64,000 nt of DNA from Acidisarcina polymorpha (GTDB lineage: Bacteria; Acidobacteriota; Terriglobia; Terriglobales; Acidobacteriaceae). This document shows positions 24,539 through 58,782 of the stretch, piece by piece. The stretch's first letter is position 1, and every line of letters begins with the position of its first letter. The notes under the pieces are model-generated. The model had not been told where the DNA came from. It did not search any database and saw only the letters and a list, made by a program, of their open reading frames with translations. The DNA lies in assembly GCF_003330725.1 (NCBI RefSeq), contig NZ_CP030840.1, positions 3,596,001 through 3,660,000 of the forward strand, written 5' to 3'. A program made the translations under genes and the position numbers.

Positions 24539-24759
24539 CTAGCAGGAAAGTTCGCACCGATGTTCATAGTATTTAACCCTCGCCTCTTCGGCGCGCACCC
24601 GTCACCCATTCGAGCCATTGCGTCTCCACCCTTGTTTGTTGGAGATGCTTGTCTCAGCGAGACGGTTTTGCCAACGAACTCAAAAAAAATGGGGGACTCT
24701 TACGATCAGAGATTGCACCAAATCCGGGCTTAGGATTTCTCCATTTCTTCGCCTGCCAT
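24539..24759 (-). pseudogene. Deletion derivative of the two-gene module at 33.6-34.1 kb
   Basis: On the minus strand this segment begins like the membrane protein at 34144-33848 (MAGEEMEK, IWC, then LRQASPTNKGG and MARMGD). Directly after that start it jumps to the last codons of the neighbouring gene at 33801-33583 (AEEARVKYYEHR, ending in Cys-stop, against AEEARFHFHEYR there). In-frame stops lie upstream. The nucleotide leader around LRQASPTNKGG is nearly identical in both places. So an internal deletion fused the 5' part of gene A to the 3' end of gene B. Confidence 0.7.
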
Positions 24760-24805: not shown

Positions 24806-25798
24806 TCACCGCACGAGGAAATCAGAACCGATACTCCCTCCGATGCATGATCCTGATCCAAAAGATGCGTGGGAGGCGAATTGTCCGAGCGGGCGTTTTT
24901 GTTTGTTCACATAAATGTATCTAGACAGGCTAATAGCGTGATCATTGAAGTAACTAATATTGATCGCCTCGTTCCCATACTCATCTATGACTATCAACGT
25001 GCTTGGATTTGGCCTACTCACAGATAACCTTCTACCTACGACAAAGCCGTTTTCGTCAAATCGAGCGATGATCTTGTCATCAGCGTCGCGAATATCCAGT
25101 ATTGGAGTGATGACGCCCGGCGACACCTGCTTCAGCTGAAATTGCGGGCGACCATTGACCTCAAGAACAGTGTAAGGAAAATGGTCAGCGAATCCAGTGT
25201 AGTCGGGATACAAAATTAGGGTCGAACCCGGAGGAGCTTTTCCCTCGCAGCCATTGTGCGGTGTTACCATCTTCCCCGCTGTTATTCTTCCTGAGTATGA
25301 TTCAGCTAACTGTTCTTCATGTTCAAAGAGTTTCTTGTTTTGTGTCACTAGGGCACGGAAGCGACGGCGTTCTTGGTGGTTTGTCTGGGATAAGTCATCA
25401 ATCGTCGCCTTGAATTGCTTCTGGCTAAGTTCGTACGCCCGTGTCAGCTCACCTGCAGTGGCTTCAAACTCAGACTTTTGAGTAGAGGCTATATGGCTAA
25501 ATTCCGAATTCAGTTCGGCCCTCTGCTTGTTATTTTCGAAGTTGCTCTTACCAATGGAGTGGATCTCGGCCGTAGCTAGAACCATGAGGATGAGCATCCA
25601 GGAGACTTTCTCCACTATGTGCATGTCTGTACGAATACTCATGATGCCAGCCGCAGTCGCGAGCAAGCCAACTGAGACACCTGGGGATCGCACCGTATAT
25701 GCAGCCCATACCGCAATCCCGGTAAACACCAGAACCAAGGCATGTCCCACTCGATCGCTTTTCCATACTGTTTCCGCCCAATCTTCTCGTCTCCCCAT
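24806..25798 (-). CDS. Membrane-anchored coiled-coil protein, unknown function
   Basis: A 330-residue protein. Three hydrophobic segments lie near the N-terminus (VGHALVLVFTGIAVWAAYTV, VGLLATAAGIMSI, VSWMLILMVLATAEI). A charged helical region with coiled-coil character follows (about 85-165), then a beta-rich C-terminal domain (LILYPDYTGFADHFPYTVLEV, IIARFDENGFVVGR). The ATG at 25798 follows GGTGAGAG. The frame is open upstream, but that part overlaps the terminase remnant in another frame and is not this gene. It starts 47 bp after the terminase C-terminal remnant on the same strand, so it may be cargo of that lost element. I do not recognise the family. Confidence 0.65.
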   Translation of the reverse strand: MGRREDWAETVWKSDRVGHALVLVFTGIAVWAAYTVRSPGVSVGLLATAAGIMSIRTDMHIVEKVSWMLILMVLATAEIHSIGKSNFENNKQRAELNSEFSHIASTQKSEFEATAGELTRAYELSQKQFKATIDDLSQTNHQERRRFRALVTQNKKLFEHEEQLAESYSGRITAGKMVTPHNGCEGKAPPGSTLILYPDYTGFADHFPYTVLEVNGRPQFQLKQVSPGVITPILDIRDADDKIIARFDENGFVVGRRLSVSRPNPSTLIVIDEYGNEAINISYFNDHAISLSRYIYVNKQKRPLGQFASHASFGSGSCIGGSIGSDFLVR

Positions 25799-25844
25799 GA
25801 CCGCAATGCTCTCACCTGGGGCTGCCAACGTCGAGGGCGCTTCA

Positions 25845-25984
25845 TCACATCCTCCACGAAGGCATCTGCTGAGTTTCCGAGTACACGCATGCCTGCGCGC
25901 CGAATTGGTGGCCGCAGTTGCCGCATCGGAAGCCAGCGCGAAGCGTCTGGATGAAGGGGCGCAACGACTCTTCGATGCAATAGA
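25845..25984 (-). pseudogene. C-terminal remnant of a second phage terminase
   Basis: The minus-strand frame that stops at 25845 reads IQTLRAGFRCGNCGHQFGAQ and ends in QQMPSWRM-stop. The intact terminase at 51312 ends IQKLSSGFRCGMCAHQFGTP and RMPSWRM-stop, with the same zinc-knuckle CxxC spacing. The nucleotide sequence past the stop (CATCCTCCACGAAGGCATC on the plus strand) is conserved too. Only about the last 45 codons survive; nothing upstream resembles a terminase. This is the residue of an element related to the one at 51-58.8 kb. Confidence 0.85.
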
Positions 25985-26116
25985 CTCGGCATCTCGGAGG
26001 CGGCGGTAACTTCTGAGACGCGCGTTTGAACTAAGCCGCTGGCGCGGCGGATGCTGCATTGGTGGCGGCGCTGGCGGCGGCTGGATTTAGGGTTCGGGTC
26101 ACAAGGAGGATTTCCT

Positions 26117-26395
26117 GTGACCCATCTTCGCCAGTTGATACTCGACGAACTCGAGCGTCGTAACTACTCTCCGAACACCGCACGGTCTTACCTGCATGCA
26201 GTGGAGAAGTTTGCAAGGCACTTGGGTCGTTCTCCCGAGCAGCTTGGCGCCGATCACGTCCGCGAGTACCAGGTCCATCTGTTCCGCGACCGCAAGCTTT
26301 CGGCACGCACCATCGCAGGTCAGACGGCGGCGCTGCGCTTCCTGTTCGTCAAGACATTGCGCCGTCCTTACCTGCCCGACGCGCTCCCGTCTCCT
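26117..26395 (+). pseudogene. Truncated tyrosine recombinase (N-terminal part)
   Basis: Begins with GTG behind a perfect AGGAGG and encodes the SAM-like core-binding domain of a tyrosine recombinase (ILDELERRNYSPNTARSYL, LGRSPEQLGADHVREYQ, then LRFLFVKTLRRPYL). The similarity stops after about 90 codons and the catalytic domain is missing. The frame runs on into unrelated IS DNA up to 26533. It closely resembles the recombinase at 42582, which belongs to a class found with IS91-like transposases. It is a dead end created by the IS3-type fragment on its right. Confidence 0.8.
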
Positions 26396-26492
26396 GGCTC
26401 TGTGGGTCCAGCAAATTTGATCGACCCTAACGCTGTGCTGTTTATGGGTACCCGGCGCGATTCCGAAACCGAACGCAAGCAACGGAAGCAAT

Positions 26493-26905
26493 TCATTCAT
26501 CACGTCGATCAAGCAGCCGACGAATGTGCGTGAAGACCTGGTGCGCATCGATCAAAATATCAACATTAAGCCGGATCCAGCGGCCATCGGGCAGCCGCTG
26601 AGCGACGAAATCCATGCTCCACTTGTGGGTGGGGCGCGCGGCCTGTCCTATTGGGAGCCGCTGTCGCTGGGCTCGCTCCTTGCGCTTCTGAGTCCGCACG
26701 ATCAGGCCCTCTTCGGCTGCCGGCGAGTCGCGCAATCGCACCCGGGGCGCATCCTGGGGATCGCGATGATGCTCGTAACGCAAAGTCGCCCGGTTCACCG
26801 GGATCAGCCCCGCCGCGCGGCGCTGGCTCAGTTGGTGGGCCTCTTCGGCCCACTCCGCCAGCTCGCGCCGCAAGTAGTTTGAGGGCAGAGGTGTGAACAT
26901 CTCAA
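26493..26905 (-). pseudogene. IS3-family transposase (OrfB) fragment
   Basis: The minus-strand translation contains NRATLRYEHHRDPQDAPRVRLR, then EEGLIVRTQKRKERAQ and THKWSMDFVAQRLPDGRWIR, the N-terminal half and start of the DDE catalytic core of IS3-type OrfB. The HTH_21-type linker between RVRLRD and EEGL is deleted. After the first catalytic-core strand the frame leaves the family and runs to a stop at 26493. No inverted repeats could be recognised. It overlaps the end of the truncated recombinase reading the other way. Confidence 0.75.
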
Positions 26906-33847: not shown

Positions 33848-34144
33848 TCATTTGGCGGGCACAATTGCTTGAGGATGTTGATCGACCAGGCGCCCATTTC
33901 CGGCCGAGTAGAACATCCAAACGCCTAAGCCCAGCAGTAGGCCTACCAGGATGACGGTGCTGAGCACCAGCCTAGCTATGTTCGCAGCACAAAACTCGCC
34001 TACTCGAGCCATTGCGTTTCCGCCCTTGTTTGTTGGAGATGCTTGTCTCAGTCGTACGGTTTCGTCGCCGGCGTTGATTTCTGTCACTGTTGCCCATGTG
34101 CACCAAACTTGGTCACTGGCTTTCTCCTTTCGTTCGCCTACCAT
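33848..34144 (-). CDS. Small membrane protein, module gene A
   Basis: A frame of 98 residues if it begins at 34144 (MVGERKEK), with a C-terminal half that has one clear membrane helix (IARLVLSTVILVGLLLGLGVWMFY) and a short polar tail. A second candidate start at 34012 (MARVGEF, behind GGGCGGA) would give a 54-residue protein consisting mainly of the helix. The sequence upstream of 34012, including LRQASPTNKGG, is conserved in the deleted copy at 24.7 kb at both DNA and protein level, so the longer form may be translated. The function is unknown. An IS3 scrap lies directly upstream. Confidence 0.5.
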   Translation of the reverse strand: MVGERKEKASDQVWCTWATVTEINAGDETVRLRQASPTNKGGNAMARVGEFCAANIARLVLSTVILVGLLLGLGVWMFYSAGNGRLVDQHPQAIVPAK

Positions 34145-38606: not shown

Positions 38607-41310
38607 AGAGCTGTACCACGCCTGTCGCGAGGCATCCGCGGACAAGCGCGCTGCGCTGTTAGCGCAGGCAGACTCCGAAGTGCGCCACGAAGTTGAATCG
38701 CTTCTCGTCGAGCGAACCGATCACGATTTCTTCGACCGGCCCGCCATTCATAACCCCCTGCAACTGCCAAATGAATCAACCGTCGCCCAATTGACATCCG
38801 GCGCCACCCTCGGGCCATACCGCATAGAGAGCAAACTCGGCGAGGGGGGCATGGGGCAGGTCTTCCGCGCGGTAGACACGCGCTTAGGCCGCTCCGTGGC
38901 GATCAAGATCAGTCATGGAGAGTTTAGCGCTCGCTTCGATCGCGAAGCGCGCGCCATTTCATCGCTCAATCACCCCAATATCTGCACGGTGCATGACGTC
39001 GGCCCTAACTATCTGGTGATGGAATTGGTAGAGGGCGAAACGCTTGCAGAGCGGCTGAAACAGGGTCCCATGCCCATCGAAATGGTGTTGCGCTACGGAG
39101 GGCAGATTGCTGCGGCGTTGGCGGAAGCGCATGGTAAGGGCGTCGTGCATCGCGATCTCAAGCCGGGAAACATCATGATCGCGAAATCCGGAGTGAAGGT
39201 CCTGGATTTTGGCCTGGCGAAGTCAGGCCACGACGAAACGCTCACTGCGAGCCACATGGTGATGGGTACGCCCGCCTATATGTCGCCCGAACAAAGGCAA
39301 GGCCAAACCGCCGATGCGCGCTCCGACATCTACTCATTCGGCCGTGTTCTCTACGAAATGCTGACTGGCACGCGAGTCGGGTCGGTGCGAAGACCTATTC
39401 CGTCAACAAAAATGGAAAAGATAGTAAGCCGGTGTCTTGAGGAAAATCCAGAACGTCGATGGCAATCCGCCGCCGAGTTGGAGGCAAGTCTCGCGGACGT
39501 GACCGCCTCAGGCAGCCGCGGGAGGAGCGCCCTTGCCGCCGGGAGTGGTGTGAGGAGTTTGTCCGCCGCCTGGTTCTACGCGGGGTTGGCATTAGTGGTA
39601 GGCGCTATCACTTGCGGCGTGTATCTATATTCGACCCGTAAATCATCCGCACCGATGGCGACTCAGGATGCGTGGACGCCGCTCACCGACCTCGCGGATT
39701 CAGCCGTTTCTCCGGCAATCTCTCCGGACGGGCGAATGCTCGCGTTTGTTCGCGGCTCCAACACTTTCTACGGAGAGGGGCAGGTTTATGTCGAGCTTCT
39801 GCCCGGCGGCGAACCCGTCCAATTGACACACGACGGCGTGGAAAAGATGAGTCCGGAGTTTTCTCCTGACGGCTCGCGCATCGCGTATACAACGGTGCCC
39901 GGTTTTTGGGACACCTGGGTCGTGCCAGTTCTGGGAGGCGAGCCTCGACTCATGTTGGGCAATGCCGAGGGCCTGACCTGGATCGACACGAAGAACATTC
40001 TTTTCTCCGAACTGAAGAAAGGGCTGCACATGGTGCTGGTCACAGCCGGCGAAAATCGTGAGAACAGCCGAGATATCTATGTGCCGCCCCGGGAGAGAGG
40101 CATGGCCCACCGCTCGGCAATCTCTCCGGACCACAAGTGGGTGCTTCTCACCGAGATGGACAACGGCGGGTGGCTTCCCTGTCGTCTGGTGCCTTTCGAC
40201 GGCACTTCGCCGGGGCGGACTGTGGGCCCGACAAAGGGTGGGTGCACGTACGTGGGGTGGTCTCCGGATGGGGGCTGGATGTACTTCAGCTCCGATGCCG
40301 GCGGCCACTTTCACATCTGGCGGCAGCGGTTTCCCGGCGGCACGCCTCAGCAGGTTACCTCAGGGGCGACGGAGGAGGAAGGCATTGCTATGGCTCCAGA
40401 CGGAGGATCGCTGATCACATCCGTAGGGCTGGTGCAAAGTACGATCATGCTCCATGATTCGAAAGGAGAACGGCAGCTTTCGTCAGCAAATTACGCGGTG
40501 AAACCCCGATTCTCGGCCGACGGGAAATATATCTTCTACCTGGTTCCTCCGCCCGGAACCTCCGGGCAACTGTTCGGGAGTGGGGAGCTCTTTCGTGTAG
40601 GTCTGGAAACCGGCGAAAGTCAGCATCTGCTGCCCGGTTTTTTGATGAACGGATATGCCCTGTTTCCCGACGGAAAGCGAGTCGTGTTTTCCGCAGCCGA
40701 CCCAAAGGTCCACTCCCGCCTTTGGATTGCCGATTTAGATCTTCGTTCTTCGCCTCGGCAGTTCCCCTCAACCGTCGACGAAGATTCGCCTGAGGTCGAC
40801 CAGAACGGCAACATTTACTTCCGTGCCGCGGAAGGCGGGTCGAATTTCCTCTATCAAATGAAAGAGGACGGAAGCGACCGCCTAAAAGCACTCCCTTCGT
40901 CAATCCTCGAATTCGAGAGCGTTTCGCCCGACGGTCGCTGGGCCGTCGTTGGCGCGTCATCCCAGCATCAGGACCCTCCGTTCGCAAACCTAACAGCATT
41001 CCCGCTTGGCGGGGCAACTCCAGTAATTATCTGCCGGGAGCATTGCGAGGCGAGGTGGGGTGATCAAGGGAAAACCTTTGCGGTATTCCTCAATGACAGA
41101 GAAGCCGGCAAGACTGTTATTTTCCAGCTTGATGCCGAAGATAGTCTCCCCTCGCTGCCACCTGACGGAGTGGGTTCAGTTGATCATCCCGAGACCCTGA
41201 AGGGCACCAAAGTTATCAATAAGATGGTTATTCCAGGGCCGAATCCAGGACAATATGCGTACCTGCTCCGAAGCGTGCATAGAAATCTTTACCGCATTCC
41301 ACTGCCTTAG
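38578..41310 (+). CDS. Membrane Ser/Thr protein kinase with TolB/WD40-like sensor
   Basis: A 910-residue Hanks-type kinase. Residues 1-80 form a helical leader common to this group (TQERFRKIEELYHACREAS). The kinase domain has the glycine loop LGEGGMGQVFRA, Lys110 (VAIKIS), the catalytic loop HRDLKPGN (Asp193) and DFG Asp210, then GTPAYMSPEQ. A single membrane helix (FYAGLALVVGAITCGVYLY, about 330) separates it from a periplasmic-side beta-propeller with SPDGR-type repeats (AISPDGRMLAFV, EFSPDGSRIAYT, RFSADGKYIFYL). So it is a transmembrane sensor kinase. It overlaps the ECF sigma gene and probably controls it by phosphorylation (established for related pairs, inference here). Confidence 0.92.
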   Translation: MTQERFRKIEELYHACREASADKRAALLAQADSEVRHEVESLLVERTDHDFFDRPAIHNPLQLPNESTVAQLTSGATLGPYRIESKLGEGGMGQVFRAVDTRLGRSVAIKISHGEFSARFDREARAISSLNHPNICTVHDVGPNYLVMELVEGETLAERLKQGPMPIEMVLRYGGQIAAALAEAHGKGVVHRDLKPGNIMIAKSGVKVLDFGLAKSGHDETLTASHMVMGTPAYMSPEQRQGQTADARSDIYSFGRVLYEMLTGTRVGSVRRPIPSTKMEKIVSRCLEENPERRWQSAAELEASLADVTASGSRGRSALAAGSGVRSLSAAWFYAGLALVVGAITCGVYLYSTRKSSAPMATQDAWTPLTDLADSAVSPAISPDGRMLAFVRGSNTFYGEGQVYVELLPGGEPVQLTHDGVEKMSPEFSPDGSRIAYTTVPGFWDTWVVPVLGGEPRLMLGNAEGLTWIDTKNILFSELKKGLHMVLVTAGENRENSRDIYVPPRERGMAHRSAISPDHKWVLLTEMDNGGWLPCRLVPFDGTSPGRTVGPTKGGCTYVGWSPDGGWMYFSSDAGGHFHIWRQRFPGGTPQQVTSGATEEEGIAMAPDGGSLITSVGLVQSTIMLHDSKGERQLSSANYAVKPRFSADGKYIFYLVPPPGTSGQLFGSGELFRVGLETGESQHLLPGFLMNGYALFPDGKRVVFSAADPKVHSRLWIADLDLRSSPRQFPSTVDEDSPEVDQNGNIYFRAAEGGSNFLYQMKEDGSDRLKALPSSILEFESVSPDGRWAVVGASSQHQDPPFANLTAFPLGGATPVIICREHCEARWGDQGKTFAVFLNDREAGKTVIFQLDAEDSLPSLPPDGVGSVDHPETLKGTKVINKMVIPGPNPGQYAYLLRSVHRNLYRIPLP

Positions 41311-41843
41311 TCATGGCGGAAATATAAGCAACATCAGACGAGCCGGAAAAGCGCCGATCCGAAAGTTTCATCTGGGAGCAGGCGAAGGCCGAGTGTTCGA
41401 GACCGAACTACCGCGGTTAGTCTTCGACGCAATATCGGTTAGCGATACTGGCCGATGCCTTCATTGAGCCGTCCAGATCGGCCTAAGTTCTGCCATGTTG
41501 CCGATAAACGTCATACTCTATCGGAGCTGCTCCGCGGGCGCGAGTGTGTGGTGTAGCAGTGGCGTGAGAGGGGAGTAGGTCGGATAGAGCGGTTTGAAGG
41601 AAGGCGCTGGTGCGGTCGGGAGAGGATGTTGGCTATGGGTTTTTAATGCCTATGGGCTGGGTCGACGCGATGGATGAGGTCCGGCAAGTGGAGCGAAGCC
41701 TTCTCAGTAGCCACCCGCATTTGGATACGGGGAGGATGCAGCGGGGGTCGTAGAGCGAGTAAGAGGCGCTGTTTTGGGCCGTGAGACACACCTCCAGTAA
41801 GCATGCTGCGAAGCACACGATGATCGCCGCTTTGACCTGGCGG
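41311..41843. other. Gap, including the tail of an IS91-like element
   Basis: No credible gene. From about 41640 on, the minus strand continues beyond the transposase stop with an open but unfamiliar frame (VKAAIIVCFAACLLEVCL and onward), which may be the non-coding tail of the IS. The first half (41311-41600) shows nothing recognisable. Confidence 0.4.
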
Positions 41844-42582
41844 CTAGGAAGAGTCAAGCTGATATGCCTCCTTTGCTTCCGCGAAGAATATCTGTGCGGC
41901 CGAGAGCCGTGCGACAAGGTGCATGCGTCCATGACAGTGCGGACACTCCCATTGTGTGGGCCTTGCGATAACAGGCGTTTCAGTTGGAGGAGGCTGGTTG
42001 AGCAGAGCGCGGCAGAGTGGCAGTATGCGGGCTCGTCTTCGGTTGGCGAGGAAGCCGAAGTAGCGGATGCGGGGAAAGCCTCTGGGCAGGACATGCTGTA
42101 CGAAGCGGCGCAGAAACTCTGCGGAAGCCAGTATCATCGCTGTCGATGTCCTCGACCTTGATCCGCGCCGCTTCGGTCCTGCGTACTCCAGTGGCATAGA
42201 GCAGCACAAGGATCATGCGGTACAAACGGTCGGGCGCGGCTTCGATCAGCCGCACGACTTCCTCCTGGCTAAGCACGGTCGGCAGCTTGTGTGGCACCTT
42301 GGGGAAGATGAGATCGTCGAAGGCCAGATCACGCCGCTTCAGTGTGCGCTTGTATAGGAACCGCAGTGCCGAGACGCGCATCTCGACGGTGCTGGGCTCA
42401 AGCCTCTTCTCCTGCAGCAGGTATCGCTGATAACGCCGCAGGTGCTCAGCGCCCAGTTGCTCCGGCGAGCAATGGAAATGTTCGGCAAACTGTCGCACCG
42501 CACCGAGGTAGCCGCGGATCGTAGAAGGTGAATAGTTGCGCCGCTCAAGCTCGTGCAGCATGCGCTCGCGAAGTTGGGTCAT
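41844..42582 (-). mobile_element. Tyrosine recombinase fused by deletion to an IS91-like transposase end
   Basis: From the ATG at 42582 (behind GGAAGGAG) the minus strand encodes a tyrosine recombinase: MLHELERRNYSPSTIRGYL, LGAEHLRRYQRYLL, LPTVLSQEEVVRLIEA, then ILVLLYATGVRRTEAARIKVEDID with the first catalytic Arg. Right after that, near 42130, it breaks off. The remaining frame (AEFLRRFVQHVLPRGFPRIRYFGFLANRRR, then CPHCHGRMHLVARLS) is the C-terminus of an IS91-type transposase of the kind usually encoded directly downstream of such recombinases. So a deletion removed the recombinase C-terminus and most of the transposase. The element is dead. Confidence 0.85.
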
Positions 42583-42989
42583 AAACAATCTCCTTCCTAT
42601 GACCCCTCACCCTAACCCTGCAGGACTCCCTTCGCTACACCACGACTCTCAGTCCGCCGCGCCAGCGGCTTCGTTCAAACCGGCTAATCGGACAAAAGCT
42701 ATTCTGCTCATTTGGTGCACGATCGCCAAAGCACTCATCGACAATAATCACGACGAACACTTCCTTGGGGCGGAGAGGTGGAGGCAGCGAGCGGAAAAGA
42801 CATGATGCGTCTGTCTGAATGCGGTTGCAGAGCTGGGCTGTCCGTTTGGTCAGGCTCTCTGGCAAGTCCGATGACGATTACGACAACTAGCTCTGAAACA
42901 CGATGCCACATATCTCTAAGTGACAGGCCATTTACATTGGGGGTGGTTGGGGCAGTGTTCGCGCACCGCCCCCTTTGGCCAACTGCTGA
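42583..42989. other. Gap without recognisable genes
   Basis: About 400 bp between the recombinase start and the SSB fragment. It probably contains the promoter end of the IS91-like element; the translations have no family character. Confidence 0.4.
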
Positions 42990-43181
42990 TTACACGTAGG
43001 TTACCGTGACGTCCTGTGATGTCGCGTCGTCTTCCGGATCTTCGGCCTTGGCCACGCGTTCGATCTGCGAAGCATAGACCTCATACCGAACGAGCTTGAG
43101 GGTTTCGCCGCCAATGGTTTTCTCCCATTTGCTGGTTCGCAACTCGCCTTCGAGGTATACGCGATCGCCCTTAAGGATCAT
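42990..43181 (-). pseudogene. C-terminal half of a single-stranded DNA-binding protein
   Basis: The 63-codon minus frame reads LKGDRVYLEGELRTSKWEKT, then RYEVYASQIERV and a short acidic tail. This is the second half of an SSB OB fold (family pattern LkKGd.VyvEGrLrtr.we...Gv.ry.tEv.a..i). The first 55 or so residues with the DNA-binding aromatic strand are missing and not found in any frame upstream. The natural tip DDDIPF is also replaced by TVTYV. A fragment, possibly left by an integrated element. Confidence 0.75.
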
Positions 43182-43324
43182 GCGGTCATCTTCTGCTATT
43201 AGGTACCAAGCGACGCTATTCGCGCGGAGACGCCAGGAATGATACTGGGCGCTTCGTCATGTGCCTTTTTTACTCACAACGGCCGCTAGATTGGCGAAGG
43301 CTATAGTCCGCTCGTTCTCCCGAG

Positions 43325-43792
43325 CTATGAGGGCAGGCCGTTCTTTGAACTTACGGGATTGTCGATAACGATAGGAGAGGGATGGCTCTTCTCAGTGGTA
43401 GGAGAGGTCTGCTCGGCAATGGAAAGATTCTCCGCCTTGATCTCAAGCCGCAGGCGATTGAATGCGCTCATGTATACGTTACCCATCCACACAAGCGCAA
43501 ACTCCGAGATCAGGAAGCCCCGCCATCCCTGGTAAAGCATCTGAAAATGGGTGAAGAAGAGGAACAGCGCCGTCACATAGTGACTAAAGCAATACTCACA
43601 TGTGAAGAGGTAAAAGAATTTGCGCTGGTAGAGCGGTTTGCAGTTTTGGCTTCTGTCCTTGCAGTATTCCCTTGGCTCGCGAAATACCTCCTCGTGGGTG
43701 ATCGTCCATGAGACGCAAGCGACCGGAAGCCCGAGCAATATAAGAACGCCGAATTGGTGCGACAGCTGGTCATTAAGAACAAGCGGGTTCAT
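43325..43792 (-). CDS. Membrane protein of unknown function
   Basis: A 155-residue protein with a strong start (GGAGGGCACACC before ATG). It has a first membrane segment (FGVLILLGLPVACVSWTI), a charged loop with Cys (REPREYCKDRSQNCKPLY), then FTCEYCFSHYVTALFLF and FALVWMGNVYMSAFNRL. The CEYC pair and the EYCKDR motif are conserved in a family I have seen next to various chromosomal genes, without assigned function. It looks intact, with about three membrane helices and a polar C-terminal tail. Its neighbours are fragments. Confidence 0.7.
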   Translation of the reverse strand: MNPLVLNDQLSHQFGVLILLGLPVACVSWTITHEEVFREPREYCKDRSQNCKPLYQRKFFYLFTCEYCFSHYVTALFLFFTHFQMLYQGWRGFLISEFALVWMGNVYMSAFNRLRLEIKAENLSIAEQTSPTTEKSHPSPIVIDNPVSSKNGLPS

Positions 43793-44172
43793 GGTGTGCC
43801 CTCCTACCCTCTGCCTTGCAAAGGCTTCGAAATGGCGCCGATGACAGCCCCCGGCGAGAAGGTGGTAAGGGCCGGAACTATGGCCCTGCCGGAAGGTCGC
43901 CCAGGCGGATCGCTGTGCTCCGTTCGGCTCCGAGTCCTTTGGCTTCCAGGAGTATCAGAAGCTTTTCAGAGCGTAGAAACAAATGGCTTCTTCTTAAGAA
44001 GAATTGCGGGATTTCGGTCGCCCGGCCAACTACGACACTTTCGGAGGTGAGTGAAGCATGCGTAGCTAGTAGCGCCCAATACTCAGTCTGATGCGGATTC
44101 TTGAGTCGCAGTGAGAAATCTGCGCGTTGATCTACAGCTTGTGTTTCATCCAGCTGATCTGGGTGGCGCAGC

Positions 44173-44331
44173 CACGTTTCACACAGAGATCGCTCAAGAG
44201 TCCACGCGCCAGGATTATCTGCACTAGGTCGAGCACATGCGGGAGCGGGTCGCACGCCTGGAACAAGCCATCATGGAAGCGGTGAAGCTGGCATCGCCCG
44301 CGCTGCAACAAGTCATCAACGATTTACGACC
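44173..44331 (+). mobile_element. IS110-family transposase scrap
   Basis: The frame reads FHTEIAQESTRQDYLH-stop-VEHMRERVARLEQAIMEAVKLASPALQQVINDL, shown here in pieces (AQESTRQDYLH, then VEHMRERVARLEQAI). It corresponds to the linker before the C-terminal IS110 domain and overlaps the segment preserved at 36074. It contains an in-frame TAG and ends abruptly at 44331. About 50 codons of the element remain. Confidence 0.75.
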
Positions 44332-44497
44332 AACTCACCGGCTGACGACTACTTCGCGGCTCGTGACAGCAATGTTAGGTTTCATGTTGTCGGTAGCACA
44401 CTTGAACTCAATAGTCCTTCCGCCACTTCGAATTTCGCTCAGTATCCCTTGCGTGAGTGGCGCGCATCCCACCCTTGCGCGGTGGTAAGAAAGTCCT

Positions 44498-46636: not shown

Positions 46637-46959
46637 ACTGTTTAGATTTTCGGCCCAGTCTCGCGAGAAAGGCCGCAACGTCAAACGACTAAAATTGCCA
46701 ACTTGCATAGGACCGACCCCTTCTTTCTCCGCGAGACGTTGATAAACTAGACCACGCCTTTGTCGCCCACTGACAGAGGTGGGCGGAAAAAGACGGCTAG
46801 GCCATTTGCCTAAGGTTTGGGCGCTTGCGATGCCTTGGCTCTCGAATAGAAAGAAGCTCCGTTCCCGCTCCGCTTGATGACGGCTGGCCCACTTGAGTTG
46901 GCTAAGCCGCGGGCGAATGGCCGCCCTGTAAGCGGCATACCAAACCCCTAGCTCGAAAG
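46637..46959. other. Gap with a short hairpin
   Basis: About 320 bp between the exporter and a broken secreted-protein gene. It holds a perfect 7-bp stem, CGCCCAC (46764-46770) with GTGGGCG (46779-46785), without a T-run. Nothing else is recognisable. Confidence 0.4.
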
Positions 46960-47677
46960 TCAGCGGCCAAAAGTAGGACTGATTTCCTCGATGCGCCAGA
47001 TCGGGCCACCCTCATAGAGTGGTCCTTCCTCCCGAACGAAAGCCGGAGGTGCGCCGCTCTGTAGCCAGATGTGATAGTCGGCCGGCTGTTTGCCGATCAT
47101 CGGTGCGACCATCCCAGAAGCCCCACCCAACTCAATGTGAAGGGTAAAGTCGGTCGCTTGCCGCCGTAATCCCCCAACGGTAAAGGCTAGACTGCCTGTC
47201 GGTTTAATAGAGACTAGGATCAGACGCGGCTTCTTGCCTGGTACAACGTATGAAATCTTCGTTTCCGCAGTGGATGGAGGAATGTTCAGCAGGAGATTGG
47301 GCGGAAGCCCGTTCGACACGTCGGGTGGCAAGTCCATATGTTCCTTGGTTAACGTGCATGGGAAATGAAGGCCCATGCTGAATGTGGTGGTCGCTGACCA
47401 GTCGGAAGACCTCGCGTTGCGTGAAGATGGTGGTGTCGTCATCGATTGATCCGTCACGAAATCGAAAAATAAGCCGCGAAGTGACCCGATCGCCATGAAC
47501 TATTTGGGTTGATTCACCCGTAGCGATGAGCTTGCCGTCAAGCGTCCGGATAGCAAGAAAACCGTGGCTTGATCCCTGGGCGAAGCGAACGTGAATCGGC
47601 TCTGCGTCCGCCAAGCCGGTTAGGATTGCTGCCAAAAGAGAGGTGGCGCCAAGGATACGGGTCAATGAAGCGCACAT
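46960..47677 (-). pseudogene. Secreted hypothetical protein with internal deletion and frameshift
   Basis: The 5' part has a signal peptide (RILGATSLLAAILTGLADA) and the body SHGFLAIRTLDGKLIATGE, then VTSRLIFRFRDGSIDDDTTIFTQREVFRLVSDHHIQHGPSF. Near 47370 the frame changes. The rest (KEHMDLPPDVSNGLPPNLLLNI, IGKQPADYHIWLQSGAPPAFVREEGPLYEGGPIWRIE) continues in another frame, and the linking segment expected between the two halves is missing. So a short out-of-frame deletion inactivated it. The family is common in Acidobacteriota; its function is unknown to me. Confidence 0.8.
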
Positions 47678-47896
47678 GAGAGCTCCTACCTGGGTAATTT
47701 GAAGACGTCATTCCTCGCTCGTGCGACTCGAGAACATGGATTGTGAGTCTTGGCGTCGAAGACAAGCCGCCAAATCGAAAAAAGGAGACGTCATTTCGTA
47801 TAATCGAGGTCACATGCTCACTCGGATCTATATTCCCAACTTTGGAAGCGTCGGATCGCAGGCAATAAGTCGCAATCACGTCTTGACGGAAGAGGC

Positions 47897-50592: not shown

Positions 50593-50860
50593 TAGGCGTT
50601 ACCGGGCGTCTTTGGCTATCTCTTCTGGGACCTCGGCTGGTGGACGCCGGTCTATCTCTTCGCCGCCGGACTGCTTGCCGGATGGCTCTGGCGGGCATTC
50701 AAGCGCGGGCGGACATCCGGCATCGTCCTTTATCCATGGATGGCCTTCTGGGTGTTGTTCTGGTTCGGCTGGAACTGCCTCTTTGACGCCCGGGGAATCG
50801 TGCTGATCGAGGCATGGATCGCGCTCGCGATCTACGACAAGATTTCATCAGAAACGCATC
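50593..50860 (+). pseudogene. Internal fragment of a polytopic membrane protein
   Basis: From the codon after a TAG near 50593 the frame reads FGYLFWDLGWWTPVYLFAAG, then LLAGWLWRAFKRG and GIVLYPWMAFWVLFWFGWNC, LFDARGIVLIEAWIALAIYDK. These are at least three aromatic-rich membrane helices resembling the oligosaccharide-repeat polymerase (Wzy/O-antigen ligase) type. The frame deteriorates after 50860. Both ends of the gene are missing. The polymerase assignment is tentative. Confidence 0.55.
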
Positions 50861-51046: not shown

Positions 51047-51214
51047 TTATTCGGGCGCAATTTCCTCTGCCTCGAGTCTATCCAGCGAAAATGACGCGAG
51101 TTGTTTAGCCGTAAAGATCGCCATGGTGTCATCTGAGAAGTACACTGCGAGCTGACTACAGTTCACATAATCCCTGGCGATCATTTCGAATTTCAGTTCC
51201 ACTTCCTCCACCAT
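51047..51214 (-). CDS. Small acidic protein, 55 residues
   Basis: A complete minus-strand frame, MVEEVELKFEMIARDYV, then LAVYFSDDTMAIFTAKQLAS and a Glu-rich end (RLEAEEIAPE). It is strongly acidic, with mixed helix and strand, and codon use like the neighbouring terminase. It starts just beyond the terminator of the terminase gene, so it needs its own promoter. No good Shine-Dalgarno is visible. If real, it is the left-most gene of the integrated element. Family unknown. Confidence 0.4.
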   Translation of the reverse strand: MVEEVELKFEMIARDYVNCSQLAVYFSDDTMAIFTAKQLASFSLDRLEAEEIAPE

Positions 51215-51233
51215 GTGATCGTAAAACTATAAA

Positions 51234-51311: not shown

Positions 51312-52901
51312 TCACATCCTCCACGAAGGCATCCGCTGACTCTCCGAAAACACGAATGCCGGCGTGCCAAACTGGTGGGCGCACATGCCGCAGCGAAAGC
51401 CTGAAGACAGTTTCTGGATGAAGTCTGAGCCGCATCTCTCACACTGCAGGACCGGGTCCGGTACGGGCGCAGCCGGCTTCGATAAGCCCAGCCACTCAGT
51501 CTGATCCTCGTGCGACGCGCCGCCCAGCTGCTTCATGGCTTCGATCAGTCCGTGAGCCTGGTTGCTACCGCGCAAGTAGTTCAGCGCTTGCGTTGTCGAA
51601 TCCACGTCATCATCGTGGGCACCTGCGGGAAATGTCGACATGACGGTCAGGTAGTCTTCCAGCCACGGTGCCGCCTTCGGTAGGAAGACCTTGCCGCATT
51701 CGACCAGAGGGCTTGCAGCATGAGCCCGGGACAGCTTGTCGGTGTCTACCTTGATCGGCCGGACCGCGAACCGAGTGCTGTTCTTGATCTCCTGCAGAAG
51801 CGACTGGCCTGATGCTTTGTCTTCGATCAGGATGATTCGAGGTTTCCACTCTGCAGCCAAGATTGCCACTTGGCGTTTTAATTCGGGGAATTCAACCCTT
51901 CTTTTGTAACGATGAAGGAGGTAAAAGCCATCCTGAGCCTCTCCCCACGTTGTGCAAACAGAGTAATCGTTCTCTGAGCCCGTCTTGAACGCCGTGTCCC
52001 ACGACTGAACGATGCGACGAAACTTTGGAAACTCCGTGTATCTCTGCCACCAGGACCGCTGGAAGACGGCGCCCTCCTCAGTGGTTGGGCGGCCTTGATA
52101 GAGCGCGTCGAATGCTTTACCGCCGAGAATGGAACGTTTGGACTTAAGATCTGCTAAGTCGAATCGGTCAGGCCAGAGCGCTTCCCCTTCGTTGCGACCG
52201 TCACCGTCGACTTCAGCGATCGCCGGCATGTTGAGGTAGTCCCAACCTTCGTCCGGATGCTCCCTGAGCAGCCAGCCAATGAGATCGTCATGCGACCAGC
52301 GCGTCTGGATGACCACTACGGCTCCATTGGGGGCCAGACGCGTGTACGCGACCGTGGAAAACCAATCGTGCAGCGTGCGCAGCATAACTTCGCTGCGGGC
52401 GTCCTCCATGTTGCGGATTGGATCGTCGATGAGGAGCAAGTTTGCTCCCCGGCCAGTGATAGCTGCCCCAACACCAACAGCGAAGTAATTCCCGCCCGCG
52501 GTCGTGGTGAATCTCTTCATGGAGTTCGAGTCTTCCGCGATTTTGAGCTCCGGGAAAGCGGCCTGCGTATAACCATCATTCACAAAGTTTCGGACCTGCC
52601 GGCCAAAATCGTCCGCAAGGTCCTGGCCGTAACTTGCCGTAATCACCGATTTGCCAGGATTGCGCCCCAGATACCACGCAGGGAAGATCGTAGTAGCCAG
52701 CAGTGACTTGCCATGCCGAGGCGGCATGGAGATGAGCAGGCGGCGAAGGCGGCCTGCTTCTACAGCTTCGAGTTTGCGAATGAGCTTTGAATGGTGCTGG
52801 GACAGCTGAAATGAAGGGAACATGAGCGGGGCGTAGGCTGCCAGGCTAAGTCGGGCAAGCGCGAAGACTTCCTCACTTTTGACAGACGTCGATGATTGCA
52901 T
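51312..52901 (-). CDS. terL: Phage terminase large subunit with C-terminal zinc knuckle
   Basis: A 529-residue packaging ATPase/nuclease. Walker A is at residues 60-66 (PPRHGKS), followed by SYGQDLADDFGRQVR and Walker B LLIDDPI. The coupling motif region is VVVIQTRWSHDDLIGWLL. The C-terminal nuclease opens with VQSWDTAFKTGSENDYSV (first catalytic Asp) and closes with HDDDVDSTTQAL. This is the TIGR01630/Terminase_6C type. Beyond the usual end there is an extra CERCGSDF...FRCGMCAHQFG zinc knuckle of about 45 residues, which is also what survives at 25845. It overlaps the small-subunit gene by 29 bp. It cuts and threads phage or satellite DNA into a capsid that this element does not encode. Confidence 0.93.
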   Translation of the reverse strand: MQSSTSVKSEEVFALARLSLAAYAPLMFPSFQLSQHHSKLIRKLEAVEAGRLRRLLISMPPRHGKSLLATTIFPAWYLGRNPGKSVITASYGQDLADDFGRQVRNFVNDGYTQAAFPELKIAEDSNSMKRFTTTAGGNYFAVGVGAAITGRGANLLLIDDPIRNMEDARSEVMLRTLHDWFSTVAYTRLAPNGAVVVIQTRWSHDDLIGWLLREHPDEGWDYLNMPAIAEVDGDGRNEGEALWPDRFDLADLKSKRSILGGKAFDALYQGRPTTEEGAVFQRSWWQRYTEFPKFRRIVQSWDTAFKTGSENDYSVCTTWGEAQDGFYLLHRYKRRVEFPELKRQVAILAAEWKPRIILIEDKASGQSLLQEIKNSTRFAVRPIKVDTDKLSRAHAASPLVECGKVFLPKAAPWLEDYLTVMSTFPAGAHDDDVDSTTQALNYLRGSNQAHGLIEAMKQLGGASHEDQTEWLGLSKPAAPVPDPVLQCERCGSDFIQKLSSGFRCGMCAHQFGTPAFVFSESQRMPSWRM

Positions 52902-53334
52902 GGCTAAGTGCCTCGTGTTTCAAGTAGCTGTTTGCGATCCGTGCCGCGGTCTCTTTGTCCAGAGTTGCAAAGAACGCCGATCTTGGCTTTGGAAGAATCT
53001 CGCCGCGGAGATTTGCGATCTCGAGGCCGATCTTGATTCGCTGGCTGAGCGCGGCCACGGCCGATTGCGTGTGCCCGCGAGTGATCGCCATGGTCTGAAC
53101 AGACGCGAGGTCCCGATCGCGTTCCTCTAGAAATTCAATAGAAGACATCAGCGCAGCCGGGCGGTGCACCAACGAAGTCGCGGCGGCAGTGAGGTGGTCC
53201 TTTCGATGTCGATACAGGTTGCTTTCTGGTAGCCCCACCTCCCGTGCGATCGCCGGGATCGACCTCCCCGCAGTCAGTGCCGCGTCGATCTCGTCACGGC
53301 GCCGATCGGTACACACTCGACAGGCTCTCGGCAT
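52873..53334 (-). CDS. Putative terminase small subunit / DNA-binding protein
   Basis: A 153-residue protein that opens with a Cys pair (RACRVCTDRRRDEI) and a helix-turn-helix (AGRSIPAIAREVGLPESNLYRH). A long helical region follows (LEERDRDLASVQTMAI, SAVAALSQRIKIGLEIANLRGE) and a C-terminal helix. Position directly before terL with a 29-bp overlap, size and N-terminal DNA-binding motif all fit a small terminase. Sequence similarity to a named small-terminase family is not obvious, so the call is mainly contextual. The start at 53334 follows GAGGAAC; the open frame further upstream has no coding character. Confidence 0.65.
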   Translation of the reverse strand: MPRACRVCTDRRRDEIDAALTAGRSIPAIAREVGLPESNLYRHRKDHLTAAATSLVHRPAALMSSIEFLEERDRDLASVQTMAITRGHTQSAVAALSQRIKIGLEIANLRGEILPKPRSAFFATLDKETAARIANSYLKHEALSHAIIDVCQK

Positions 53335-53720
53335 TGTTCCTCGTTTCTGAAGATCGTGGGGAGCTTTGTGAATACCCAGGGAGCACTTGATCATACAAGC
53401 CTTGCCAGGCTCCTCTAAGAAAGGAGTTATAAGGTTCTGACATCGAAGTGCATAATCACACCCTGATCGGTCACCGCCGAGACTGCCGCGCCTCGCCTGC
53501 ACCCCATGGCGCTGAACACGATGCCCGCGTTTGCTTTCTGTTCCGAGGATAAGCTAACAGCTTCAGCAATGCGTCAAGTTCTTCGAGCCTGACGGGGTGC
53601 TGCGCAGCATGGATGGCAGCGACGTCCGGCGCCAAATAAATCAGCGATACATGATCGCTGCTATATCGCGAAGCACATGTTCGCGATGTGGGCACTCGAG
53701 CTTTTCTGCCCGAGAACAGA
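53335..53720. other. Gap between terminase and helicase genes
   Basis: About 385 bp inside the minus-strand operon. A 27-codon frame from an ATG at 53725 (overlapping the helicase stop) and a neighbouring frame with protein-like composition (APDVAAIHAAQHPVRLEELDALLKL, here in pieces: APDVAAIHAAQ, LEELDALLKL) could together be one small gene with a frameshift near 53640. I cannot decide between that and non-coding DNA. Confidence 0.3.
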
Positions 53721-55013
53721 TCATGCGGTGCTTCTCTCCTCGAAGATGAGGCGTTCGGAGTTATAAAATACGTTGATCGGACCCGTGACCCCGTGCCGCT
53801 GCTTAGCGATGATGATCTCGTCGGCGCCAGTAAAATCCTGCCGATCATCGACGGGCCGATGAAGCAGGAAAACGTTGTGGGCGTCCTGCTCAAGGTTTCC
53901 AGTTTCCTTCAAGTGAAAAAGCGTCGGTCGTTCATTGAGGTTACGTGAATTCGCACGACTCAACTGCGAAGCCGCCACGACGGGAATTCCTGCACTTTTC
54001 GAGAGACTACGAAGGGCAGCCGAGACCTTGTTCATCACATCGCGGGCATCACGGCCAGTCTCGCTCACGATCTGGATGAAGTCGACAAAGACAATTTTGA
54101 CGCCGGCCTTACGGATCCAAAGGCGTGCCGTCGCTGTGATTTGACGAGGATTCAAGCTGTCCTGATCGCATACATAGATCGGCAGTTCCGCGAGCGCTCC
54201 GGCGCATTCCACCACATGGTTAAACTCAGAGGTATTCATCTCGCGAGGCTCGCGGAACTTGCGCGGCCTTAACCTTGATTCAAGAGACATAAGCCGGCGA
54301 AGCAGTTCGCCTTTGCGCATCTCGAGCGACAGGATCAGTACCGGGAAGCCCGCCTGCGCGGCTGCCCGCGCCGCCTGCACGATGAATGAGGTCTTGCCGC
54401 GACCAGGATAAGCGCCCACCAGCGAGAATTCACTCCTCCAGCCCGTCGTCACCTCGTCGAGTGATGCAATACCCGTTGGTATGCCGAGTACGGCCTTCTT
54501 TGTCTGGCGCTCACGGGCGATCGCATCCAGTTCAGGTTGGATTAAATCTTTCAAGGAGAGCACCTCAACCCCGCAACCCGACTGCACCTCCGCGACGTCG
54601 TGTTCGATCGAAGCGATTACGTCGTCCGCCGTTTCATTTCCATAAACTCTCGCGAGAGCCCGCTCGAGCGAGGCCGCAAGGGCTCGCTTTGCAGCCATCG
54701 CGCGGAGTGTTTCCAAGTGCTGCCTGACGTCGTAAGTCCGAACCGTGCCCGTCGTGAGGTCGGAAATGTATGTGGCGCCGCCTGCGCTCGATAGTTCATC
54801 CGACTGGATGAGTTCCGTCTGGACCGCCGTCAAATCGATTGAAGCTCCACGCCCGTTCAGGCGAACCATCGCCCGAAGGATCCGCCGGTTCCCGTCTGTG
54901 AAAAATAGGTCGTCGGTCGCGCCTTCGAAAAACTCAGGCTGCTTCACCTCGAAATTTAGGGCGTGCCCGAGGATTGCGCGCTCTTCGTACTCGAGATGCA
55001 ATGGCTCAGGCAC
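53721..55013 (-). CDS. dnaB: DnaB-type replicative helicase
   Basis: A 430-residue hexameric helicase. The N-terminal DnaB domain (HLEYEERAILGHAL, FFTDGNRRILRAM, GGATYISDL) is followed by a RecA-like motor: GIPTGIASLDEVTTGW, Walker A GAYPGRGKTSF, LSLEMRKGELLRRLM, Walker B KIVFVDFIQIV, and motif H3 VAASQLSRAN, ending with the arginine-finger region IIAKQRHGVTG. It starts with GTG and overlaps the upstream gene by eight bases. It is shorter and divergent relative to a chromosomal DnaB and lies in a phage operon, so it is the element's own helicase for replication after excision. Confidence 0.9.
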   Translation of the reverse strand: MPEPLHLEYEERAILGHALNFEVKQPEFFEGATDDLFFTDGNRRILRAMVRLNGRGASIDLTAVQTELIQSDELSSAGGATYISDLTTGTVRTYDVRQHLETLRAMAAKRALAASLERALARVYGNETADDVIASIEHDVAEVQSGCGVEVLSLKDLIQPELDAIARERQTKKAVLGIPTGIASLDEVTTGWRSEFSLVGAYPGRGKTSFIVQAARAAAQAGFPVLILSLEMRKGELLRRLMSLESRLRPRKFREPREMNTSEFNHVVECAGALAELPIYVCDQDSLNPRQITATARLWIRKAGVKIVFVDFIQIVSETGRDARDVMNKVSAALRSLSKSAGIPVVAASQLSRANSRNLNERPTLFHLKETGNLEQDAHNVFLLHRPVDDRQDFTGADEIIIAKQRHGVTGPINVFYNSERLIFEERSTA

Positions 55014-55836
55014 TCGCCGCCTCCAATCTTAGTTTCTCGAGGGCCCCTGGTCGGACCGCGTTGTCGAGCCGCATGAGGGACTCATCGTCATACCTCTCTT
55101 GACTAAACCAGGTTGCTGGGAGAGGGATAAATTGTTGATCGGTACCTTTCGCAGTTTCGCGATCACGGTACAGCTTCACGCGGATTAGGAGCCTCTGCAG
55201 AGCTGCTTCGAGGGAGATGTTTTCGGCCTTCGCCACCCTCTCCGCAGCGTGCCGGATTGCTTCCTTCGCCGGTCTTTGAGCTACCCGTTTTGGGTAATTG
55301 TTGTAAATCTCCGCGACTGCCGCATCAGTCAACTGATTCATCGCGGCTGTATCTCTCTTCATTGAATGGGAAGACGAAGATGAAGGAGAAGGGGACGTCC
55401 TTAAGGGTGGCTGCAAGGATGCCTTCCCAGTAAACTCATTCTTCGCTTTCGGCCTCGGGACATTTGGGTGGTCCAAACTCTTAACTCCGCCCGAGGCGCG
55501 GACTTGACGCAATTTCTCATCGCGCACCATGCGACGGGAGAAAAGGATATCGTCAGAAGTTCGGCTGAAGACCTTAAACCGCTCCAACTCTGCCAAAAGA
55601 GGCACAAGCTCGGACTCGGTCATGCCCAACATGCGGGCATGGACCTCAGGAAGGATGGGTCGAACCACATCCTCCCCGCCTTCCTTCTGCAGCATCGATA
55701 AATGTCCGTAGGGAGCTCCTTGGTGGCAGAGGCAGAGGGTTTCAATACACAGCCCACGAGCTCCAATCGAAACAGCGCGCAAGGCCGTGTCGCGATACCA
55801 GTCGCCCGGGTAAAATTGGAAGCTCGGGCGAATCAT
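55006..55836 (-). CDS. Phage replication protein (DUF1376-like N-terminus)
   Basis: A 276-residue protein. The first 110 residues have the DUF1376/replisome-organiser look (RPSFQFYPGDWYRDTALRAVSI, then RGLCIETLCLCHQ and LFSRRMVRDEKLRQVR, the typical rr...ek....a..GG segment). A Ser/Pro-rich linker follows (SPSPSSSSSHS), then a C-terminal helical domain (YNNYPKRVAQRPAKEAIRHA, IPLPATWFSQERYDDE) seen in phage primosomal loaders. It sits directly upstream of the helicase with an 8-bp overlap, so it probably binds the origin and loads the helicase. The start at 55836 is preferred for the match and for GAAGGCGGG upstream. Confidence 0.75.
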   Translation of the reverse strand: MIRPSFQFYPGDWYRDTALRAVSIGARGLCIETLCLCHQGAPYGHLSMLQKEGGEDVVRPILPEVHARMLGMTESELVPLLAELERFKVFSRTSDDILFSRRMVRDEKLRQVRASGGVKSLDHPNVPRPKAKNEFTGKASLQPPLRTSPSPSSSSSHSMKRDTAAMNQLTDAAVAEIYNNYPKRVAQRPAKEAIRHAAERVAKAENISLEAALQRLLIRVKLYRDRETAKGTDQQFIPLPATWFSQERYDDESLMRLDNAVRPGALEKLRLEAASA

Positions 55837-56045
55837 GCGCCCGCCTTCGCGTACCAGCAGCCACACCCATCGATGGTCTCGTGATGGAGGCGCAGGTTCT
55901 CAATCGACAGGATTGCCGTCATAATAGGCGCGACCTGAGCGCTTGGCAGCGCACTAGCTAGTTGCGCAAGCGTCTTGCGGTACTTGCGCAATTGGATCGC
56001 AGGGAATTCACACCCCTTCGGGGATTGCATGACGTCTTTGGACAT
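55833..56045 (-). CDS. Small hypothetical phage protein
   Basis: A 70-residue protein (QSPKGCEFPAIQLRKYRKTL, then LASALPSAQVAPIMTAILS and a Cys-rich end GCGCWYAKAG). It overlaps the replication gene by four bases (ATGA), so it is translated with it. The family is not recognised. Basic N-terminal half, no membrane segment. Confidence 0.6.
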   Translation of the reverse strand: MSKDVMQSPKGCEFPAIQLRKYRKTLAQLASALPSAQVAPIMTAILSIENLRLHHETIDGCGCWYAKAGA

Positions 56046-56071
56046 AAATTTTCTCGAGTCGGTACTCCAGG

Positions 56072-56090
56072 GGCCCGTTACGAGCGGGCC
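56072..56090. repeat. Short GC-rich hairpin in the leader of the replication operon
   Basis: GGCCCG (56072-56077) pairs with CGGGCC (56085-56090) around a seven-base loop. It lies in the 103-bp spacer between the excisionase-like gene and the replication genes, so it may attenuate or process the transcript. There is no T-run on the minus strand. Confidence 0.4.
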
Positions 56091-56148
56091 TTATGTTGGT
56101 CGTTAAAGTTGCCTAAGTGCCGTCGTCGCCACCCGTAGGCGTTGACTT

Positions 56149-56346
56149 CTACCGCGCGATCGCCGGTACGTATGAATTTTCAAGTGCCTTTTCCACCATC
56201 TCCTCAGTGAACCGGATGTTGCGGCCAATTTTCAGATGTTCCTGTTCCCGGCGCCAAATTTTCTGCCGAATTGTTGCAGGTCGCTTCCCGGTTCTCTCGG
56301 CAAATTCATCGACGTTCAAAAAACGCTTGGGACTAACTGTCGGCAT
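56149..56346 (-). CDS. Excisionase/AlpA-like helix-turn-helix protein
   Basis: A 65-residue winged-helix protein of the HTH_17/excisionase kind: KRFLNVDEFAERTGKRPATIRQKIWRR (pieces: LNVDEFAERTGKRP, TIRQKIWRREQEH), then KIGRNIRFTEEMVEKAL. The order NVdEfAerTgk...tIr..i..g.l...kiGr..rf....ve is diagnostic for this group, which bends DNA for excision or activates satellite genes (AlpA). Strong start: GAAAGGAGG seven bases before the ATG. It is the first gene of the minus arm and lies directly next to the palindrome at 56372, so it may bind that site. Confidence 0.8.
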   Translation of the reverse strand: MPTVSPKRFLNVDEFAERTGKRPATIRQKIWRREQEHLKIGRNIRFTEEMVEKALENSYVPAIAR

Positions 56347-56371
56347 GTACGCGTCCTCCTTTCTCCTGAAA

Positions 56372-56395
56372 ATTCATGCGAACTTTCGCATGAAT
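56372..56395. promoter_or_regulatory. Perfect 24-bp palindrome in the divergent control region
   Basis: ATTCATGCGAA (56372-56382) and TTCGCATGAAT (56385-56395) are exact inverse complements separated by CT. The site lies 26 bp before the excisionase-like gene and 53 bp before the 345-residue gene, where both promoters must be. It is the obvious operator of the element, but which protein binds is unknown: the excisionase-like protein or the unknown 345-residue protein are candidates. A second small palindrome, CTAGTG-CTT-CACTAG, follows at 56411-56425. Confidence 0.75.
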
Positions 56396-56447
56396 GTCAT
56401 TGCGGAAGTCCTAGTGCTTCACTAGTATGAATCAAGAGGAATGGCGA

Positions 56448-57485
56448 ATGAGCAAGATCGCAGACTTTCGCGAAGATTCGCGGTATGGTCTCCAGTGGTT
56501 TCGTCCGGCATGGCAAAAGGGCGAGTTGCTTAAAGTGAAGCAGCTTTTAAGGGGACAGTCTTTCCCAACTGTGGACGCTGCCACCCCCGCTTATCTAGAC
56601 GAGATCAAGGATGTGGCTCCAGTGATCCGAGTGAACGGACACACGAGACCATCAGTCCGCATCGTTCGCGGAGCTAGCTACAGTGTTGAAAGTCTTGTCA
56701 CGGATGCAAAGCGGAGTAAAGATCTTAAGGATTCGCCTCAAGTAAGTTTCGTCACGCTTCAGCGTGACGATGATCTCAGTGCGTTGAAGTTCATCGACAC
56801 GTTCGGCCCCCTATTCTGGCCGCAGAAGATGTTGGCTGTTGCGGACTGGATACATCTCGACGATTTCTGGGCTCGTCACGCTCGCTTCCTCGCAATTTCC
56901 AAGCTCTGGCGTTCTCTTAGGGATGGCGAGCAGGCAATCCAAGACGCCTGGAAGTGGATAGAAGAAAACCTTACGGCAACCAGGATTGCTGGTGAGCCGG
57001 ATCTTGGAAGCGATCCAACGCAAACGATCGGTACAGGCAAGCGCGTGAATTCGATTGCAGTGCCGATGCCTTGGCAAGCAAATAAGCAGATGCTTAAGGT
57101 GCTACCCTCTCTTGCTATGGCGGAAGGGCGTTTCAACGATGAGGTTGTTCGCATCAGTTCCAGCGCCATGAATAGAACGCTTGCGATAGCCCTCATCCAA
57201 CATGAACTCACCCGCCAAACAGAGAGCGCCAAGACGCTCTGGCGCATAGAAGACGGCGTAAAAAATCTGCGTTGCATACCAGAACGGCGGATCGAGAGCT
57301 TGTGGTCCGCCATGTGGGAGATCTTCGCAGCCGAGGCAGGAAGTGGACTATCTTGGCGCTTCTGCAAGGCCTGTGGCAAGCCGTTCTACCCAAAGCGTAT
57401 CGATAGCGATTGCTGTACAACCGCGGAGCAGTCTGCTTGGAGCAAAAGCAACTACGCCGCGCGCTGGGCACAGAAAGGGAGATGA
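56448..57485 (+). CDS. Unknown protein with C-terminal zinc motif, next to integrase
   Basis: A 345-residue cytoplasmic protein I cannot assign. The N-terminal half is mixed alpha/beta (YGLQWFRPAWQKGELLKV, VAPVIRVNGHTRPSVRIVRG, FIDTFGPLFWPQKMLAVADW). The middle is helical (DWIHLDDFWARHARFLAIS, AIQDAWKWIEENL). The C-terminus carries WRFCKACGKPFYPKRIDSDCC, here quoted in pieces (FCKACGKPFY, DSDCC), i.e. CxxC plus CC, a plausible zinc knuckle. It recalls abortive-infection or HTH-less phage accessory proteins only in size and context. The start at 56448 has AAGAGGA seven bases ahead; 56427 is an alternative. Its stop lies one base before the integrase start, so both are co-transcribed. Confidence 0.7.
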   Translation: MSKIADFREDSRYGLQWFRPAWQKGELLKVKQLLRGQSFPTVDAATPAYLDEIKDVAPVIRVNGHTRPSVRIVRGASYSVESLVTDAKRSKDLKDSPQVSFVTLQRDDDLSALKFIDTFGPLFWPQKMLAVADWIHLDDFWARHARFLAISKLWRSLRDGEQAIQDAWKWIEENLTATRIAGEPDLGSDPTQTIGTGKRVNSIAVPMPWQANKQMLKVLPSLAMAEGRFNDEVVRISSSAMNRTLAIALIQHELTRQTESAKTLWRIEDGVKNLRCIPERRIESLWSAMWEIFAAEAGSGLSWRFCKACGKPFYPKRIDSDCCTTAEQSAWSKSNYAARWAQKGR

Positions 57486-57486
57486 T

Positions 57487-58782
<1,296 letters not shown>

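Follow-up and report, generated by a model that had tools for sequence, protein, structure and literature searches.

Positions 24806..25798 of the 64,000-nucleotide stretch of DNA analysed here (the window) hold, on the minus strand, a gene for a protein of 330 amino acids, recognized by its open frame, its distant homologues and a low-confidence structural model; the protein has a predicted membrane anchor, coiled coil and beta-rich end, and the gene is presumed to be cargo. Its ATG at 25798 lies 46 nt past the stop codon of a fragment of a terminase gene, terL (25845..25956, minus strand). Near the broken side of this fragment, a truncated tyrosine-recombinase sequence belonging to a dispersed repeat occupies 26022..26533 of the plus strand, recognized by Pfam (Phage_int_SAM_4, E 7.6e-19, for the ORF at 26051-26533) and by further copies in the genome (best 90%, with similarity from 26022 on). 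Another truncated tyrosine-recombinase ORF, resembling that at 26051-26533, is found at 41980-42588.

The terL fragment is a dead remnant of the gene, identified by its DNA identity to two intact copies, A (51312..52901 of the window, minus strand) and B (elsewhere in the genome), and by comparison of frames and mosaic patterns. Clear DNA homology to copy A spans 25842-25956, with 91 of 115 bases identical (79%, E 1e-23), and identity to copy B is 87% over 114 bp; at the protein level, a search with terL A against its own genome gives 55% identity to residues 477-529 (E 2.0e-11). Within a frame of 61 open codons, the fragment reads FIQTLRAGFRCGNCGHQFGAQACVYSETQQMPSWRM and then stops, and intact copy A reads FIQKLSSGFRCGMCAHQFGTPAFVFSESQRMPSWRM. 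An earlier reading made from the sequence only held that some 45 terminase codons, an unusual zinc knuckle and the DNA just past the stop survive here. A homologous 3' end is indeed present on the minus strand, its clear part amounting to 37 codons with the stop, or ~53 (to ~26009) if the protein alignment is extended into a part of weak similarity; of the zinc ribbon it keeps the second half, with the second CxxC (CGNC) in place and the first, which is CERC in intact copy A, absent, and conservation past the stop is confined to 2-3 bases. All of terL upstream of the last 37 codons is gone, and the locus, referred to below as copy D, keeps the terL side only, without an integrase end or a tRNA end, which counts against the element interpretation proposed below.

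The sequence-only reading described the gene that follows on this strand as an apparently intact membrane/coiled-coil protein, and this description holds, as the frame is open and looks complete from the ATG at 25798; the start chosen by the ORF caller (26059) would yield 417 amino acids and overlap the terL fragment in another frame. Hydrophobic segments lie at residues ~16-38 and ~59-83, and a single-sequence model of low confidence (mean pLDDT 52.5, pTM 0.24) predicts a helix for residues 59-168 and strands within 209-282. The protein matches no Pfam family above the cut-off (best FeoA, E 0.00097, 19.6 bits where 23 are needed) and its profile finds nothing better than E 0.97 among PDB sequences; it matches PHROG 21483 with E 0.0014. 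In PADLOC no significant match was obtained for any of the cargo proteins scanned, the best values for the membrane protein being E 0.012 and 0.023, the latter (12.3 bits, not significant) to a CBASS-like 2TM effector model. The gene has a G+C content of 48.9%, among the lowest 0.6% of 993-nt stretches in the window.

Five terL loci in the genome

The sequence-only reading spoke of a second related element, which falls short of the actual number: a search with terL A against its own genome (nine rows, the weak row at C1:2860349, E 0.43, not being counted) gives five terL loci, two of them intact (A and B) and three relics (C, D and E). Copy A matches Pfam Terminase_6C/6N and PHROG 38 (E 1.5e-121), and copy B lies at C1:263356-264942. 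Relic C (C1:3578952-3579543) is made up of four search rows, one of them inverted, another point against the element interpretation; it retains an integrase remnant and a piece of tRNA-Asn (97% over 61 bp). In relic E (C1:6475033-6475182), the end of terL directly adjoins the end of an integrase gene, and the locus has a weak resemblance to tRNA-Glu (70% over 54 bp, E 0.005), with no tRNA called by ARAGORN. Both C and E have thus kept one terL end and one integrase end.

In A, the remainder of the element occupies 52873..58770, and the gene order is integrase (beside tRNA-Asn), orf352, orf70, a replication-initiation-like gene, a DnaB-like helicase gene, a small-terminase-like ORF and terL. 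B has the same order but different integrase and replication genes, its DnaB being 33% and its terL 97% identical to those of A, and the frames of all listed genes are open in both copies. None of the A or B proteins scanned matches a portal or capsid family. Each is a small integrated element with an integrase and replication genes and no structural genes, from which we infer a phage satellite. The sole Phage_portal hit of the genome lies at C1:4613290-4614339 (E 8.6e-50) and may belong to a helper prophage or to another relic; an HK97-type capsid had no hit in the genome.

Direct repeats that could serve as attachment sites were sought beyond the cargo of A and B with exact words (covering 40000-51400 for A and L041 12900-19900 for B), with blastn and with mismatch scans, and none were found; it is therefore not proven that the cargo lies inside the element, and we do not claim membership in a named satellite family. 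The best candidates for B, at L041 ~17350, match at 13 positions out of 16 and at 15 out of 20 (one shuffle each gave 11 and 13) and lie far from the end of the homology between B and E (14098), and those for A reach 14 of 20 bases, without a shuffle comparison; we find neither set convincing. A short dispersed repeat is present at 24587-24668, 33996-34062, L041 14659-14720 and C1:5093481-5093547, two of these four places being behind terL cargo; its copy at 24587-24668 was rejected as an element end, because the repeat recurs at three other places and at two of them runs into the beginning of a small membrane ORF. The segment 10188-10232 resembles tRNA-Asn (87% over 46 bp), in the orientation opposite to the tRNA at 58707, and may mark where a further element, now lost, once ended.

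Variable DNA behind terL

When the 3' ends of the terL copies are aligned, similarity breaks off at the stop codon or close to it in nine of the ten pairs: at the stop itself in A-B and A-E, 2-3 nt past it in A-D, B-C and B-D, 7 nt before it in A-C, and within a few bases of it in C-D, C-E and D-E. The exception is B-E, where similarity continues through a methyltransferase gene (Pfam Methyltransf_11, E 1.4e-8; 92% amino acid identity between the two) and ~220 bp more. As B and E, 6.2 Mb apart, share this gene, the cargo probably travels, and the comparison suggests that it moves with the element; the common methyltransferase could instead be due to duplication of host DNA. Behind terL, A has a 55-aa ORF (51047..51214, minus strand), B and E the methyltransferase gene, C a 735-aa ORF facing terL and D the membrane gene, so that A, B/E and D carry different accessory DNA at the same position. 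The proposal that cargo is variable at this point is thereby supported, and the related statement that the complete element has another gene there is right as to the ORF in A, which is not proven to be a gene.

The tract behind terL has a G+C content of 50.6% in A, 47.5% in B, 53.0% in C, 49.7% in D and 49.0% in E, compared with 55.8% for the window and 55.0, 56.1 and 55.9% for the 20 kb surrounding B, C and E, respectively (other stretches, 53.6-60.0%). C, with the highest of the tract values and a next gene, the 735-aa ORF, at 57.7%, has no clear AT-rich cargo, which speaks against the cargo-slot interpretation.

The last 112 nt of terL, on which the following evidence rests, are divided in two. 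A and B are identical in the first 58 of these nucleotides (their identity ahead of the breakpoint extending over a total of 186 nt) and have 8 differences, all in the last 54, while B and D are identical in the last 57 and have all 15 of their mismatches in the first 55; when 15 mismatches were placed at random 200,000 times, a mismatch-free run of at least 57 occurred with a frequency of 9e-5. Since A differs from B in the tail, constraint alone is not the reason for the identity of B and D. The 13 bases just before the stop are invariant in all five copies, the decayed E included. These patterns make terL of B a mosaic of an A-like body and a D-like end, with a breakpoint that presumably arose by homologous recombination, and the terL tail would thus have been a recombination point beside the slot. 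Because the cargo of B differs from that of D, the donor would have resembled D while carrying a different passenger gene, or the cargo was replaced afterwards.

Relatives in other genomes

Close relatives of the membrane protein are absent from the genome-contig, viral-contig and plasmid collections. Distant homologues occur in 8 of 200 relative genomes, its own included; in the 7 others, the N-terminal part is matched in 3, the C-terminal part in 3 and both, in two frames, in one (G063). A 7-row profile matches 19 of 399 class genomes, again counting its own (18 others). The homologues next to terminases that the sequence-only reading had suggested looking for did not appear, as terL, sought at E 1e-3 in 22 homologue loci (7 + 15), gave no match, and the family is therefore not specific to the element. 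Integrase matches are present at two of the 22 loci (L225, L232), and no terminase, portal or capsid name is among the best 25 of 31 PHROG families matched by near neighbours. That reading had regarded a fixed chromosomal place without phage genes as evidence against it: the missing link to terL goes some distance in that direction, but no common fixed place is seen in the 22 loci. What we take to be a guaB-like gene adjoins two of them; it follows the homologue at one locus and precedes it at the second. A PADLOC comparison of 82 near and 67 far neighbours of these loci shows no clear enrichment of defence genes, with 15 families of at most 2 members each among the near neighbours, TIR-like among them, and 65 of 1 member each among the far ones, including type I restriction-modification. 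The family thus appears, from these distributions, to consist of patchy, scattered accessory genes that are not tied to terminases.

The terL tail has no match in phages and weak hits in 14 other genomes of the 399 of the class (E 4.6e-6 to 0.0097); only one of 7 such loci examined (G300:C131) matches both terL and the small-terminase gene. Next genes were surveyed at 20 loci (8 of 10 from related genomes, 4 of 10 from genome contigs and 8 of 80 viral), of which L058 and L070 look like one locus and some are at contig ends. An ORF of at least 400 aa starts within 60 nt of terL in 7 of the 20 and within ~350 nt in 11, and of ten next ORFs tested, 6 match a portal family and that of L178 is GreA-like. 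Four loci from related genomes (L174, L176, L178 and L179) have no long phage-like ORF behind terL. In this family, terL units that lack a capsid may be frequent.

Interpretation

We consider it probable, with some reservation, that what survives at this locus is the outer end of a small integrative satellite-like element that has decayed, with the membrane gene in its cargo slot and the terL tail as the hinge. Such elements would combine a fixed body (integrase, replication initiator, DnaB-like helicase, small-terminase-like gene and terL) with an exchangeable outer gene in the slot behind terL, and recombination inside the conserved terL tail would link one element's body with an outer end from a different element. 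D would then have been reduced to the last 37 codons of terL and its cargo, with the truncated recombinase repeat near the break. By analogy with the other copies, the membrane gene would have arrived in this way; its position, strand and low G+C favour the idea that it is retained cargo, whereas the broader occurrence of its family does not. Its product would help the host or the element, and a phage-exclusion factor, given the membrane anchor, coiled coil and beta-rich head, is a guess that we think unlikely to be right. Somewhat less doubtful, if still improbable, is the general proposition that capsid-less satellites with both terminase subunits swap anti-phage or host-benefit cargo through recombination in the terL 3' end.

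The membrane gene could also be a resident chromosomal gene with the terL fragment beside it by chance, as its relatives lie among ordinary genes (in the ORFs listed) and none of them with terL; its shared strand, its distance of only 46 nt, its unusually low G+C and the lack of a close homologue in other genomes make this rather unlikely. We are a little more sceptical of the view that A-E are the left halves of decayed ordinary prophages, whose structural genes have been deleted and whose genes behind terL are chromosomal flanks. A portal gene commonly follows terL in phages, as in the survey above, C, D and E are visibly decayed, and the genome does have one portal gene elsewhere, but the terL stop codon would not be the common end point of independent deletions, the same gene follows terL in B and in E, which lie far apart, and all listed genes of A and B are still open. 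The 13 invariant bases before the stop would fit a terL end kept as a DNA site (an integrase core or packaging site) instead of a relic, which we regard as very improbable, because neither the integrase end nor any other part of the window contains a second copy and the differences between A and B in the tail still yield a full protein.

If the locus is indeed the outer end of such an element, fixed and exchangeable DNA meet at the terL tail in a family of elements about which little is known, and passenger genes, among them perhaps some directed against phages, could be collected directly by examining what follows such tails.

Comparison with known systems

Acidobacterial gene-poor prophages have been described, and those without virion genes may, according to the authors, be satellites (PMC5900883); in contrast to the loci described here, neither a cargo slot nor a repeated family features in the part of that account considered. 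The cf-PICIs and the Mulch/Flayer satellites, as far as the consulted portion of their description goes, also have both terminase subunits, but they carry their own portal and capsid genes (PMC10690885), of which there are none in the A or B proteins scanned. PICMI is likewise a small satellite with an integrase, a replication gene and a hotspot for accessory genes; the sections of its description used here do not mention a terminase (PMC10803314), whereas both terminase genes are present in our elements. In P2 and P4, an exchange tract lies between psu and int, by the cos site, and recombination has been proposed for the exchange (PMC9122126, in the excerpts available). The resemblance is that one small exchangeable tract adjoins conserved genes; here, however, the slot is behind terL, the breakpoint is inside terL and a defence function of the cargo is hypothetical. 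Should our interpretation hold, one genome would display a breakpoint left by cargo exchange of the kind suggested for P2 and P4, and, by analogy with what those partial accounts describe, the element would work like the P4 and PICMI hotspots (PMC9122126, PMC10803314).
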